From assembly GCA_031260285.1 (NCBI GenBank), contig JAIRKD010000020.1, positions 1 through 62,470 of the forward strand: a stretch of DNA of 62,470 bases. Reading direction: 5' to 3'. Shown here piece after piece: positions 37,256-42,147 of this stretch. Position numbers and translations under genes: made by a program. This DNA is from Gemmatimonadota bacterium. Lineage in GTDB: Bacteria > Gemmatimonadota > Gemmatimonadetes > Longimicrobiales > Longimicrobiaceae. How positions within the stretch are numbered: position 1 is the first letter of the stretch; the number at the start of each line of letters is the position of its first letter. The notes under the pieces were generated by a model. The model was not told where the DNA came from. It made no database searches and was given only the letters and a program-made list of their open reading frames with translations.

Positions 37256-38623
37256 TCACTCCAATCCGTAAGCCTTCAGCTTCTGCCAGAGAGTGGTCCG
37301 ACCCATTCCGAGGAGTGCCGCCGCCCGGGTCCGGCTTCCGTCCGCATCCTCCAGAGCCTTGAGGATCGCGGCTCGCTCAGCCTCCGGGCCGGGAGCCTGG
37401 TAGCGCCGGGCCGCATCCGCCCGAAAATCAGTGGATGGGTGATCATCATCGGTTGCACCCTCGCGCACTTCCGGGGGCAGATGCCAGGGCTGGATCCGGT
37501 TTCCATCACAGACAATCGCTGCGTGTTCGATGGAGGCAACCAGCTCCCGGACGTTCCCCGGCCAGTCGTATGCCCGCAGCGCCTCCAGCGTCTCATCGGA
37601 GAACCCTGCAATCCGCCGGGTCGGGTCAGTGGCCCGGGTGTTCCAGCTGGAAAGCGCGGCGCCCGCCAGAGCCGGAATATCCGCGACCCTCTCCCGAAGC
37701 GACGGAATCCGGATCTGGAAGACTTTCAGGCGGAAGTAGAGGTCGGCCCGGAACCCACCTTCTTCAACCATGCCTTCAAGATCGGCATGGGTTGCGGCGA
37801 TCACCCGCACATCCACCGGAATCGGCCGGGCGGTTCCGACACGGGTCACCTCGCGTTCCTGCAGCACGCGCAGCAGCCGGGCCTGCATTCCCCCGCTGAT
37901 ATCGCCGATCTCATCAAGGAAGAGAGTGCCTCCGCTGGCCTCTTCAAAAAGCCCCCGCCGTTCAGCAACCGCTCCGGTGAATGCACCCCGGGCGTGACCG
38001 AAGAGCTCGGATTCCAGCACACCCTCCGCGAGGGAGGAGCAGTTGATCGCCACAAAGGAGCGGTTCCGGCGGGTACTCTCCGCGTGGATCGCCCGCGCCA
38101 CAAGCTCCTTCCCCGTTCCCGTCGCGCCACGGATCAGCACGGTTGACTCTGTACAGGCGACCCGCTCGATGGCGCGAAGCACCTCGCGCATTTCGGGGCT
38201 TGTGCCGACAATCGCCGCCGCGCCCGCTCCGAGCACCGGCGTCCGGCGGGCCAGAATCACCCGGATCTTCGAGCGCAGCGCCTGGTTGTCACAGGGTTTT
38301 GTGATATAGTCGTCCGCCCCGAGCTTCAGCGCCTGGATGGCTGTATCCACAGTGGCATACCCGGTGAGCATCAGCACCGGAATCGCGTTCCCCGCCCGGC
38401 GCAGCTCCTCCAGTACAGAAAGCCCCGAGCGGCCTTCCATCTTCAGATCCAGAAGAAGCAGCTCGTAGCTCTGCTCCCCAAGCCGGGTGAGCCCCTCCTC
38501 ACCATCCGCTGCGGTCTCGATCTCATATCCCTCATCCGCGAGCAGCGCGCCCGTCGCCACACGGAACGCACGGTCATCGTCGATAATCAGAATTCGCGGT
38601 TGATCGGAACTCATGTTGTCCAT
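37256..38623 (-). CDS. NtrC-family sigma-54-dependent response regulator
   Basis: A 455-residue, three-domain activator. The receiver domain has an acidic pocket at about 15-17 (IDDD), the phosphoacceptor Asp59 (LLLLDLKM), Thr in MLTGYA and Lys in YITKPCD. The AAA+ domain has Walker A GATGTGKE (166-173), an intact GAFTGA loop (213-218) for contacting sigma-54, and Walker [10 protein letters not shown] Fis-type helix-turn-helix closes the protein (RTRAAALLGMGRTTLW). It overlaps the histidine kinase gene by 13 bases. Its probable target is the sigma-54-like promoter 1.9 kb away at 40541. Confidence 0.95.
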   Translation of the reverse strand: MDNMSSDQPRILIIDDDRAFRVATGALLADEGYEIETAADGEEGLTRLGEQSYELLLLDLKMEGRSGLSVLEELRRAGNAIPVLMLTGYATVDTAIQALKLGADDYITKPCDNQALRSKIRVILARRTPVLGAGAAAIVGTSPEMREVLRAIERVACTESTVLIRGATGTGKELVARAIHAESTRRNRSFVAINCSSLAEGVLESELFGHARGAFTGAVAERRGLFEEASGGTLFLDEIGDISGGMQARLLRVLQEREVTRVGTARPIPVDVRVIAATHADLEGMVEEGGFRADLYFRLKVFQIRIPSLRERVADIPALAGAALSSWNTRATDPTRRIAGFSDETLEALRAYDWPGNVRELVASIEHAAIVCDGNRIQPWHLPPEVREGATDDDHPSTDFRADAARRYQAPGPEAERAAILKALEDADGSRTRAAALLGMGRTTLWQKLKAYGLE

Positions 38624-40365
38624 TTCCGGTCTGCGTCAACGGCTGTTTCGGGGCCCACGGTCAGAATCTCACGGGGAAGGCGGATCACAAACCGCGCGCC
38701 ACCATCCGGCCCGTTTTCGACGCGGAGCTCGCCCTGGTGCCCGCGAACAATTCCCTCAGAGACAAACAGGCCGATGCCCACCCCCCGAATGCCCGGTTTT
38801 GTCGTATAGAACGCCTCGAAGATACGGGGAAGATGCTCCGCGGGAATCCCCGTACCCGTATCCTCGATCACCGCCTCCACCGCTCCCGCCTCCGCCCGGG
38901 TGCGGATGTGCAGCGTACCCCCGTCCGGCATGGCATCCACCGCATTATCCACCAGATTGATCAGAACCTGCTGCATCGCATCTGAATGGGCGACCACAAC
39001 AGGCAGGTCGGGCGCCAGATGGTATTCGACATCAATTCCGTTTTCAGCGAGTTCCCCGGCCGCCAGCGTCACCACCCGCTGAACCAGCTGATTCATGTTG
39101 ATCGGCGTGGCCGCGTCGGAAAGGGGCCGGCTCTGATCCAGAAGCTGCCGGGTAAGCTGCGCCATCCGCTGCAGCTCCTCCCGCGCGAGAGTAAGGAACT
39201 CGTGGTTCGGATCGGATGGGTCACTCCGTCGGTCCAGCACCTCCAGACAGTTCTGGATGTTGTAGATCGGATTGTTGATCTCATGGGAAAGCTGGGCGAC
39301 AAGACGACCCATCGCAGCGAGCTTTTCCCGGTGGATCAGCTCCGCCTGGGCTGACCGCAGGCGTTCTTCCCGTTCCGCAATCGCGGAGCGCATCTCCCCG
39401 AACGCATGGGTCAGCTGCCCTACCTCATCGGACGATGCGCGGGGAAGCGGAGCATCATAGTTCCCCCGCGCGAGTTCGGTTGCCGCGGACGCCAGGGACT
39501 GCGCCGGCCGGGCCACGATCCGCGCCACAAAAAACGCCAGACCAAGCCCGACAAGCAGCGCTGTGACCCCGATGCCCAGCACCGAACTGCGTACGCTCTG
39601 CGCCAGCCGCAGCTCCTGCGCGACAGGACGCAGCAGCAGAATCCCCGCGCCGGTGCCCCGTACCGGCAGCCCGCTTGAATAGTAGAGGTAAGGAAGCCGC
39701 TCCACGACACGCCGCCAGATCCCCCCGCGCTCGATCACGGCGGGAAGCTCCATGGAGCCGAGCACGCTGACCAGACTGTCGGGAAGGGTTGTTGTCAGCA
39801 CCGAATCCCCGACCACCAGCGCAACTTCCGCCCCGCCGGTCACGTCCTTCAGCTCACGGACAATGGTCTCGTCCAGCCGGCTTCCGACTCCCACGATTCC
39901 CACATAGACACTGTCTGTCCAGACGGGCCAGACGGAGAGGCGGATCGGAACTCTGGTCCCCTCGGTGAACGCAACGATCGACCCCTCCTGCGTGCCGAGC
40001 ATGGTGGATGTCTCCAGCGCGGGACCAGCCACCGACATGCCCGTCGAGTCAATCGCAAAGACCTCCAGCCGGGGGACAACGTACCGTCGCAGCGTGCGCC
40101 GCAAGGTGACTGTATCACCGCTCTGGAGGTTGTCCGCGATCCCGCGCTCAAGAGCCACCCGGCGCGCGGTTTCCAGGAGTGCGTCGTCCTGTACACGCCA
40201 GTAGGCGCGCAGCGCCTCGTTTGCGGCCACCAGCTCCCCCGTCGCCCGCTCATAGACGCGCTCCTCCACCGCCCGCGCGATCAGTGCCAGCGCAGGAAGC
40301 ACCGTCAGCAGCGTTCCGACGGAGAACAGCAGAAACACCTTCAGCCGAACAGATATCCCCTTCAT
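38611..40365 (-). CDS. membrane sensor histidine kinase
   Basis: A 584-residue kinase. A membrane helix (about 7-28) is followed by a periplasmic sensor of about 220 residues with dCache-like spacing, a second membrane helix (VLGIGVTALLVGLGLAFFVA), a HAMP domain and then the HisKA domain with His in LSHEINNPIYN at about 361. The ATPase domain has NLVDNAVDAMPDGG and EDTGTGIP. It should phosphorylate the co-transcribed regulator. ATG at 40365 has GAGGAG four bases upstream. The ligand is unknown. The phased GAAC repeats begin 30 bases before this start, so the operon may be autoregulated. Confidence 0.93.
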   Translation of the reverse strand: MKGISVRLKVFLLFSVGTLLTVLPALALIARAVEERVYERATGELVAANEALRAYWRVQDDALLETARRVALERGIADNLQSGDTVTLRRTLRRYVVPRLEVFAIDSTGMSVAGPALETSTMLGTQEGSIVAFTEGTRVPIRLSVWPVWTDSVYVGIVGVGSRLDETIVRELKDVTGGAEVALVVGDSVLTTTLPDSLVSVLGSMELPAVIERGGIWRRVVERLPYLYYSSGLPVRGTGAGILLLRPVAQELRLAQSVRSSVLGIGVTALLVGLGLAFFVARIVARPAQSLASAATELARGNYDAPLPRASSDEVGQLTHAFGEMRSAIAEREERLRSAQAELIHREKLAAMGRLVAQLSHEINNPIYNIQNCLEVLDRRSDPSDPNHEFLTLAREELQRMAQLTRQLLDQSRPLSDAATPINMNQLVQRVVTLAAGELAENGIDVEYHLAPDLPVVVAHSDAMQQVLINLVDNAVDAMPDGGTLHIRTRAEAGAVEAVIEDTGTGIPAEHLPRIFEAFYTTKPGIRGVGIGLFVSEGIVRGHQGELRVENGPDGGARFVIRLPREILTVGPETAVDADRKWTT

Positions 40366-40394
40366 CACACTCCTCGCGGAATGAACATCACCCC

Positions 40395-40460
40395 GAACGT
40401 TCACTGAACATCCGAACCATGTTCACTGAACACGGAACAGCTGTCGAACAGCTGGAGAAC
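40395..40460. promoter_or_regulatory. phased GAAC/GTTC operator cluster
   Basis: Within 66 bases GAAC occurs seven times and GTTC twice. GTTCACTGAACA, an inverted repeat with 3-nt centre, occurs at 40399-40410 and again exactly 22 bases later at 40421-40432. GAACCATGTTC lies between them. GAACAGCTG then repeats at 40435 and 40446 with a further GAAC at 40457, giving an 11-base period. Such helical phasing is typical of multimeric activator sites. Confidence 0.6.
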
Positions 40461-40540
40461 ACCTTTGAAAATCATCCATCGATTTCTGTAAGCTGACATA
40501 AATCAGCCACTTACGTAAATCTGTAGAAAACGGGCACTCT

Positions 40541-40556
40541 GGGTACAGGCGTTGCG
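40541..40556 (+). promoter_or_regulatory. sigma-54-type (-24/-12) promoter of the small lipoprotein
   Basis: GGGTACAGGCGTTGCG has GG (40542-40543) and GC (40554-40555) separated by exactly 10 bases, with AC after the GG and a full TTGC. This matches the TGGCAC-N5-TTGC consensus at its most conserved positions. Transcription would start about 60 bases before the lipoprotein ATG, and the GAAC cluster lies about 100 bases upstream, the usual enhancer distance. Confidence 0.6.
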
Positions 40557-40625: not shown

Positions 40626-40823
40626 ATGAAGAAGCTCTTGGGCGCCTGCTTTGCCCTTACCCTGCTTACCGCCTGCGGCCGCAAGGAAGAAGTGATCCTT
40701 GAGGAGCCGGTACTTGAGGAAGTCTCGCCGGCCCCGGTTGTGGAGCCCGCGATTCCGGTTATCACCGACTCGATCGTCATCGACAGCGCTGCACCCGCTG
40801 CACCGGCGACGACCACTCCGTGA
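40626..40823 (+). CDS. 65-residue acidic lipoprotein
   Basis: A tiny exported lipoprotein: Lys-Lys start, hydrophobic stretch and the lipobox Leu-Leu-Thr-Ala-Cys at about residue 17. A mature chain of about 48 residues is rich in Glu, Pro, Val and Ala and lacks predicted structure (EEPVLEEVSPAPVVEPA). GGAG lies nine bases upstream. No catalytic motif exists, so a structural, spacer or signalling role in the envelope is more likely. It is divergent from the kinase/regulator operon and has a sigma-54-like promoter, so it may be that system's main output. Confidence 0.8.
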   Translation: MKKLLGACFALTLLTACGRKEEVILEEPVLEEVSPAPVVEPAIPVITDSIVIDSAAPAAPATTTP

Positions 40824-40980: not shown

Positions 40981-42147
40981 CTATCGCAGCTCCTCGCGCG
41001 TCCACTCCCCGATCCGCCGGATTCCTTCCTCGACCTGCTCAACCGGTGCAACCCAGGAGATACGGATCCACCCTTCCCCGGCCGCTCCGAACGCGACTCC
41101 GGGCACAGTGATCACCCGCTTGTCCTCAATGATCCGCTCCGCCGCGGAGATCGACCCACCCATGATCGACCCACCCGTACAATGTGAGGGCAGCCGAAGG
41201 AAGCCGTAGAACCCTCCCTCAGGGGGAATGACATGCAGGCCGGACCGGTTTGCGGCGGCCAGCATATGCTCCCGGTTTGCGCGGTAGATGGGTGCATGAT
41301 CTCCCAGTCGGCCTTCCCGGAAGAGAAATACCGCCACCCGCTGCGCAAAAGTCGCAACACCAGTGTTGAGGAACTGATGAACCTTGATCGCCGCCGTGAT
41401 CACCTCCGCCGGCCCCGCAAGCCACCCCACCCGCAGACCGGTCAGCGCATTGCTCTTGGAGAGCGACCCCGCCACCAGTGTATTTGAATGCCAGGTCGCG
41501 ATTGTCGCGGGGTACTCCTGACCCGCATGGATCTCCCCGTATACCTCGTCAGCGAGAATGAAGACATCCTCCCGGCCGGAAGCAGCAAGCCCCGCCGCGA
41601 GCTTCCGGAGCTCCTCCGCGGGCCACACCCGCCCGGTCGGGTTGGTCGGGGTATTAAGGACTATCAGCCGGGTCTCCGGCTGTACCGCTTCCAGAACCCT
41701 TCCCGCATCCGGCTGGAAGTCGTTGTCAGGGTCAAGCGCAACCGAACGTGTGGCAACGCCTTCCAGCGTCGCGATCTTCGGGTAGGCCAGAAAGCCGGGC
41801 TCGATCACCAGCATCTCGTGCCTTGCCGGGTCGCACACCGTCTTGACCGCCAGATAGAGCGCCTCCTCCGAACCGACAGTGACGCAGACGTTCCCCGCGG
41901 AAAGCCCGCCGATCGCCCACTCCGCGCGCCCGAGATATGCAGCGATCAACTCCCGGAGTTCGGCCTGCCCCGCATTGGGAGCGTACCGGGAACCATTCTC
42001 CCGCGTCCAGGCCATGGCGTACTCAAACGCCTCCATATCCGGCGGAAGCGTCGGCTCACCAAGGCCCAGATCAATATCCCCCGGCTTCTTCCGGTCGTTG
42101 ATCGCCCGGATCAGCGATGGTTCAATCAGCGAGATACGAGGGTTCAC
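40981..42147 (-). CDS. dapC: PLP-dependent aminotransferase, probable N-succinyl-diaminopimelate aminotransferase
   Basis: A 388-residue class I/II aminotransferase. The PLP-Lys is in GSLSKSNALTGLRVGW. NTPTNPTGRVW (the Asn-Pro-x-Gly motif) and ILADEVYGEIH with its conserved Asp and Tyr are present, and an Arg that binds the substrate carboxylate lies in GWIRISW. Family membership is certain. The specific role is inferred from its place as third gene after dapD and dapE, whose pathway needs exactly this step. It starts with GTG overlapping the dapE stop (GTGA). Confidence 0.82.
   Translation of the reverse strand: MNPRISLIEPSLIRAINDRKKPGDIDLGLGEPTLPPDMEAFEYAMAWTRENGSRYAPNAGQAELRELIAAYLGRAEWAIGGLSAGNVCVTVGSEEALYLAVKTVCDPARHEMLVIEPGFLAYPKIATLEGVATRSVALDPDNDFQPDAGRVLEAVQPETRLIVLNTPTNPTGRVWPAEELRKLAAGLAASGREDVFILADEVYGEIHAGQEYPATIATWHSNTLVAGSLSKSNALTGLRVGWLAGPAEVITAAIKVHQFLNTGVATFAQRVAVFLFREGRLGDHAPIYRANREHMLAAANRSGLHVIPPEGGFYGFLRLPSHCTGGSIMGGSISAAERIIEDKRVITVPGVAFGAAGEGWIRISWVAPVEQVEEGIRRIGEWTREELR

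Follow-up and report, generated by a model that had tools for sequence, protein, structure and literature searches.

The window, i.e., the entire stretch of 62,470 nucleotides that was analyzed, harbors a two-component system encoded on the minus strand and, in the opposite direction, a gene for a small lipoprotein. The features of this locus are:

37256..38623, minus strand: NtrC-type response regulator (receiver, sigma-54 AAA+ domain with GAFTGA, Fis-type HTH), the proposed binder
38611..40365, minus strand: sensor histidine kinase (dCache-like periplasmic sensor, HAMP, HisKA, HATPase_c)
40383..40417, no strand: around site 1, further GAAC half-sites (40383, 40395 and 40414); in excess family-wide, but not at these exact positions
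40399..40409, no strand: dyad site 1, GTTCACTGAAC; kept in 20 of 20 kinase loci with at most one mismatch
40421..40431, no strand: dyad site 2, GTTCACTGAAC, 22 bp from site 1; kept in 20 of 20 kinase loci
40435..40460, no strand: GAACAGCTG repeat and a third GAAC, in 11-bp steps; not conserved in orthologues
40489..40510, no strand: counterpart of a second conserved element (in relatives TAAGC, then GGCG...CGCCAC), much changed in this genome
40542..40555, plus strand: sigma-54 −24/−12 promoter (GG 40542, GC 40554), with two mismatches to TGGCAYN5TTGC
40626..40823, plus strand: small lipoprotein gene (65 aa, LTAC lipobox), the proposed target

The kinase start is best placed at the ATG at 40365, which follows GAGGAG, rather than at GTG 40404 as in the open-reading-frame list. 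This start is preferred because the orthologues align from there, and the repeat array is therefore intergenic. An earlier, sequence-only reading had described this array as located near the kinase start, and the pair of dyads is indeed found 33 bp upstream of the ATG. Also the repeats are exactly where they had been reported, i.e., GTTCACTGAACA at 40399 and 40421 (22 apart) and GAACAGCTG at 40435 and 40446 (11 apart), with a further GAAC 11 bases on, at 40457. The core is composed of the two copies of GTTCACTGAAC, while GAAC half-sites extend over 40383−40460, and three of these follow each other at intervals of exactly 11 bp.

When the segment 40366−40625 was dinucleotide-shuffled 5000 times, a 12-mer repeat appeared in 7 shuffles and a 9-mer repeat with a distance of 11 appeared in 6, while three GAAC pairs at distance 11 were found in none; the same segment harbors 11 half-sites, compared to a shuffle mean of 3.1. 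True tandem repeats aside, the window has just one more 12-mer direct repeat at 12−30 bp, which is located at 41149, within an aminotransferase ORF. The tandem repeats are short and consist of 9-bp units at the contig edge (1−45), 11-bp units, CGGGTGATGGA (8171−8204), and 8/16-bp units, TCCCTGAT (26904−26940). A simple scan revealed no sigma-70 promoter or terminator, and an Rfam scan of 40200−40950 yielded no family at the gathering score (three sub-threshold matches are all downstream, at 40729−40896).

In the genome as a whole, the dyad pattern with one mismatch gives 50 strand-wise matches, compared to 8 for the reversed control. The GTTCACTGAAC-like matches are isolated, with a second dyad alongside in none of the 24 places included in this check (L003−L026; 20 further listed places were left out), and a wide regulon in this genome was rejected on these grounds.

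Conservation of the dyad pair in the Longimicrobiaceae

Orthologues of the kinase are found in 19 of the 20 other family genomes at 53−70% identity, while the best matches from outside the family reach 32−41% identity. The set of 20 kinase loci discussed below is composed of the window's own locus and these 19 orthologues, all from one family, the Longimicrobiaceae. The dyad motif GTTCANTGAAC is present twice upstream of the kinase in all 20 loci, at a spacing of 21 bp in 5 and 22 bp in 15, i.e., as like sites on one face of the helix. Both dyads are perfect in 16 loci, and in the other 4 there is a single mismatch in one site. Because orthologues share ancestry, these 20 loci do not represent 20 independent events; in mononucleotide shuffles of the same upstream regions the pair was found in 0 of 40000.

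Of 21 family genomes, 16 have the exact pair, compared to none of 40 other relatives, and a phylum-wide draw gave the pair in 12 of 15 family genomes, compared to 0 of 380 genomes outside the family. When the site was required to be followed, after 84−114 bp, by GGYAYN5TTGC, 18 places were identified in 17 of the 21 family genomes and none with the reversed control. This combination is missing in G001 and G009, which have a mismatch in site 2, in G003, which has a promoter mismatch, and in G012, in which no orthologue was found (this genome is 61% complete). When the upstream regions are aligned, the two dyads, the −24/−12 promoter and a third element between dyads and promoter emerge as prominent blocks. 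Phylogenetic footprinting, which the sequence-only reading had called for, was passed by the 22-bp pair, which from these sequence comparisons is a real, conserved pair of putative regulator-binding sites.

The original proposal of a helically phased operator array is hence retained for one part of the array and abandoned for another. The 22-bp pair is operator-like, being present at 20 of 20 kinase loci at a near-fixed gap to the sigma-54 promoter, but the 11-bp GAACAGCTG/GAAC series is not supported as a defining part; there is no GAAC pair at distance 11 in 18 of the 19 orthologous loci, and one locus (L036) has one such pair. In the 2.76 Mb genome, there is a single occurrence of the pattern GAACN7GAACN7GAAC. 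It could be argued that the repeats arose by chance and lack function, as some 12-mer repeat does appear in the shuffles of the segment and chance alone may account for the 11-bp GAACAGCTG part. For the pair, this explanation is already refuted by the sequence and spacing kept across all 20 loci and by the result from the 40000 shuffles, and we consider it extremely improbable. Around the pair, 49 extra half-sites were counted in the 20 loci (6 of these are the window's own), compared to 9.3 expected from shuffles. The 11-bp GAACAGCTG part may be an embellishment of this particular genome or a set of weak extra sites, and a fair guess is that flanking weak sites help to load more subunits.

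The same repeats raise the question of whether a different DNA-binding protein, e.g., a repressor resembling LexA or one of the other Fis-type activators, occupies the dyads. The window has direct GAAC repeats at 11 bp, where GAACN7GAAC is similar to the LexA box of alphaproteobacteria, which is a direct repeat, and the genome has genes with a LexA-type HTH. However, the conserved unit is the dyad pair, not the direct repeat, and the regions immediately preceding the three LexA_DNA_bind genes are devoid of a comparable GAAC/GTTC array; a LexA-type box as the main reading was rejected on the basis of these two observations. Furthermore, the operator and the kinase-regulator pair have an identical, family-limited distribution, and we regard binding by a different protein as unlikely.

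The third element, located between the enhancer and the sigma-54 promoter, reads in the relatives as TAAGC followed by GGCG...TTTTCGCCAC (upstream regions L027−L046). A 26-letter pattern describing the element, with two mismatches allowed, gives one match each in 10 of the 21 family genomes, always at the kinase-lipoprotein locus, compared to 2 matches for the reversed control. Candidate roles of this element are a promoter of the kinase gene, a second operator or a bending site.

The sigma-54 promoter, its spacing and the lipoprotein gene

The sequence GGTACAGGCGTTGC (40542−40555) is a GG-N10-GC promoter that is located between the array and the lipoprotein gene and faces the latter; the genome also encodes RpoN. 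Mismatches to TGGCAYN5TTGC number 0 in 3, 1 in 15 and 2 in 2 of the 20 loci, i.e., the window's promoter, with two mismatches, is weaker than most. In the kinase direction, no sigma-54 promoter better than three mismatches was found in the window, and at all 20 loci the better −24/−12 match is in the direction of the lipoprotein gene. In L029−L046 the promoter is mostly GGCAYN5TTGCC, with a final C at the position where the sigma-54 consensus has A or T. Because the promoter ends in C, also the opposite strand reads GG-N10-GC, with 2−3 mismatches, in many relatives, but not in the window.

The array had been placed about 100 bases upstream of the sigma-54-like promoter, and in the window 110 bp separate site 2 from the −24 GG. 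A total of 23 promoters could be compared, i.e., those of the 20 kinase loci and three extra, unlinked ones described below. Here, the gap is 110−114 bp in 18 cases and 90, 91, 98, 101 and 101 bp in the remaining five, so that the whole range is 90−114 bp; relative to the approximately 100−250 bp expected for enhancers upstream of a −24/−12 promoter, these five (90−101 bp) reach the lower limit or fall slightly short of it. Four of the five shorter gaps differ from 112 bp by one or two steps of 11 bp, to within 1 bp, for which the random expectation is p ∼ 0.008, with the period and the center picked after the data had been seen.

On the other side, the distance from site 1 to the kinase start varies between 6 and 68 bp, with an SD of 16.9, compared to 6.3 on the promoter side (19 loci; L046, in which the start was not aligned, is left out). 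Because the distance to the kinase start drifts while that to the sigma-54 promoter is nearly fixed, the suggestion that one site serves both directions is only a possibility. The dyads could also be mainly an autoregulatory operator of the kinase-regulator operon, with the sigma-54 promoter as a bystander, and the pair is in fact closer to the kinase start than to the lipoprotein promoter. The larger variation on the kinase side speaks against this explanation, as do the negative result of the simple scan for a sigma-70-like promoter and the unlinked pairs that accompany lipoprotein paralogues, and we find it improbable.

These unlinked copies were identified among the 20 exact pairs listed for the family genomes, of which 16 are at kinase loci and four elsewhere; the site-promoter search adds a fifth extra place, in G004. 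At three of these places (L155, L157 and L177) the pair precedes a lipoprotein paralogue with a sigma-54-like promoter, where the GG-N10-GC element is found 91, 101 and 111 bp, respectively, beyond the pair. No ORF resembling this kinase is seen among the listed neighbors of L155 and L157, as judged by eye, and L177 is located at a contig end. The pair therefore tracks the lipoprotein gene and not the kinase, which is what would be predicted for an activating sequence of the lipoprotein gene. The other two extra places, L154 and L156, lack a clear sigma-54 promoter followed by a similar gene; at L156 (2091−2124), a tandem dyad is found upstream of a different, longer lipoprotein-like ORF.

A start bearing a lipobox follows the promoter in 20 of 20 kinase loci. 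The 19 complete lipoprotein ORFs (the set is without L046, which was missed by the script) encode 65 to 116 residues and are rich in Thr, Asp, Ala and Pro. The window's own lipoprotein has no Pfam match and only sub-cut-off NCBIfam matches, and for the lipoproteins of three relatives NCBIfam matches were sub-cut-off in two (the best being a PG1828-family lipoprotein) and none in the third.

The putative regulator and its relation to known enhancers

The linked regulator (37256−38623) is the best candidate for the protein that binds the dyads, because its recognition helix is invariant and because it shares the family-limited distribution of the pair. The helix, LGMGRTTLWQKLK, is identical in all 18 regulator orthologues for which the C-terminus is complete and differs in 9 of the 10 paralogues that were read; the tenth, a second copy in G003, is near-identical. 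The protein matches PF00158 and PF02954 and contains GAFTGA, which is found literally in 17 of 20 regulator orthologues (the other 3 were not inspected). A search of the genome with this regulator gave 28 matches, i.e., there are many other NtrC-type regulators, and each of these is in principle a possible binder of the dyads. The second copy in G003 (contig C14, regulator locus L201) is part of a second kinase-regulator pair at 44% and 57% identity, the upstream region of which is cut off by the contig end.

The sensor domain of the kinase was predicted with a mean pLDDT of 86, and the model resembles double-Cache sensors and ligand domains of chemoreceptors (best Foldseek E 6.7e-8, TM ∼0.5). 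A small periplasmic molecule is therefore a plausible ligand.

Taken together, the pair is very likely an enhancer of the sigma-54 promoter, used by the 37256−38623 regulator and acting on the lipoprotein gene at 40626. In this scenario, GTTCANTGAAC − 21/22 bp − GTTCANTGAAC would be the upstream activating sequence. We infer that the adjoining kinase phosphorylates the NtrC-type regulator, the HTH dimers of which would then occupy both dyads on one helix face and nucleate a hexamer. The hexamer would loop across about 110 bp to RNA polymerase-sigma-54 at 40542−40555 and turn on the small lipoprotein gene. Because the pair is found so close to the kinase ATG (33 bp), binding of the regulator there probably has an effect, most simply repression, on its own kinase-regulator operon as well. 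More tentatively, and with considerably less confidence, the locus may be a Longimicrobiaceae-specific, nearly single-target envelope circuit with the enhancer in helical register with the promoter. In the course of evolution, the spacer of 110−114 bp would have lost one or two complete turns (101, 101, 90 and 91 bp, with 98 bp as an exception), such that the looping geometry would be under selection even over such a length, and the same dyads would activate the lipoprotein gene and throttle the kinase operon.

Two sites located two turns apart, about 110 bp before a sigma-54 promoter and beside the gene of the activator, represent the textbook architecture of a bEBP enhancer; the element is a new example of a well-known bacterial switch, not a switch of a new kind. 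Also, GT-N7-AC resembles the NorR site. The tandem sites approximately two helical turns apart, the distance of about 110 bp to GG-N10-GC and the location beside the activator gene are shared with the enhancers of NtrC, NorR and CbrB, but the sequence of the dyad (GTTCANTGAAC) differs from those sites. For CbrB, a passage in PMC6296734 describes subsites 20−25 bp apart on one helix face, and excerpts from two other papers place enhancers about 100−150 bp (PMC7057263) and 100−250 bp (PMC6615313) upstream. In the case of NorR, three enhancer sites between norR and norVW are described in a portion of PMC2941729, whereas the present locus has two strong sites and loose half-sites.

The gene arrangement is like that of Escherichia coli ZraSR/zraP, i.e., a kinase-regulator operon and a small envelope-protein gene that diverge from a spacer harboring an RpoN promoter. 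In a listing within PMC8743547, zraP and zraSR appear as divergent around one RpoN-bound spacer. Identity with ZraSR was rejected, as the regulator scores 389 bits against the ZraR equivalog cut-off of 760 and the kinase 153 against 479 for ZraS. The target also differs, being a disordered-looking lipoprotein and not ZraP. Finally, the sigma-54 regulons of the Clostridiales comprise the same kind of element, discovered by the same comparative-genomic route, but in another phylum and with another motif; there, according to parts of PMC6615313, 170 of 263 activators control one operon and the targets are fermentation and amino-acid genes.

In the collection of papers that was searched, none contains both "Longimicrobium" and "sigma-54", and the sole match there to the letters of GTTCACTGAAC is a paper that, by its title, is unrelated. 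With this analysis, an uncharacterized two-component system in the Longimicrobiaceae can be linked to a concrete operator, a promoter and a proposed target gene. We find the phase-keeping series of spacers and the tiny, fast-evolving lipoprotein to be its most interesting sides. The former is a natural test of whether the helical phase between enhancer and promoter matters, and the latter, as a target, fits the view, expressed in a section of PMC3162934, that the bacterial exterior is governed by sigma-54.
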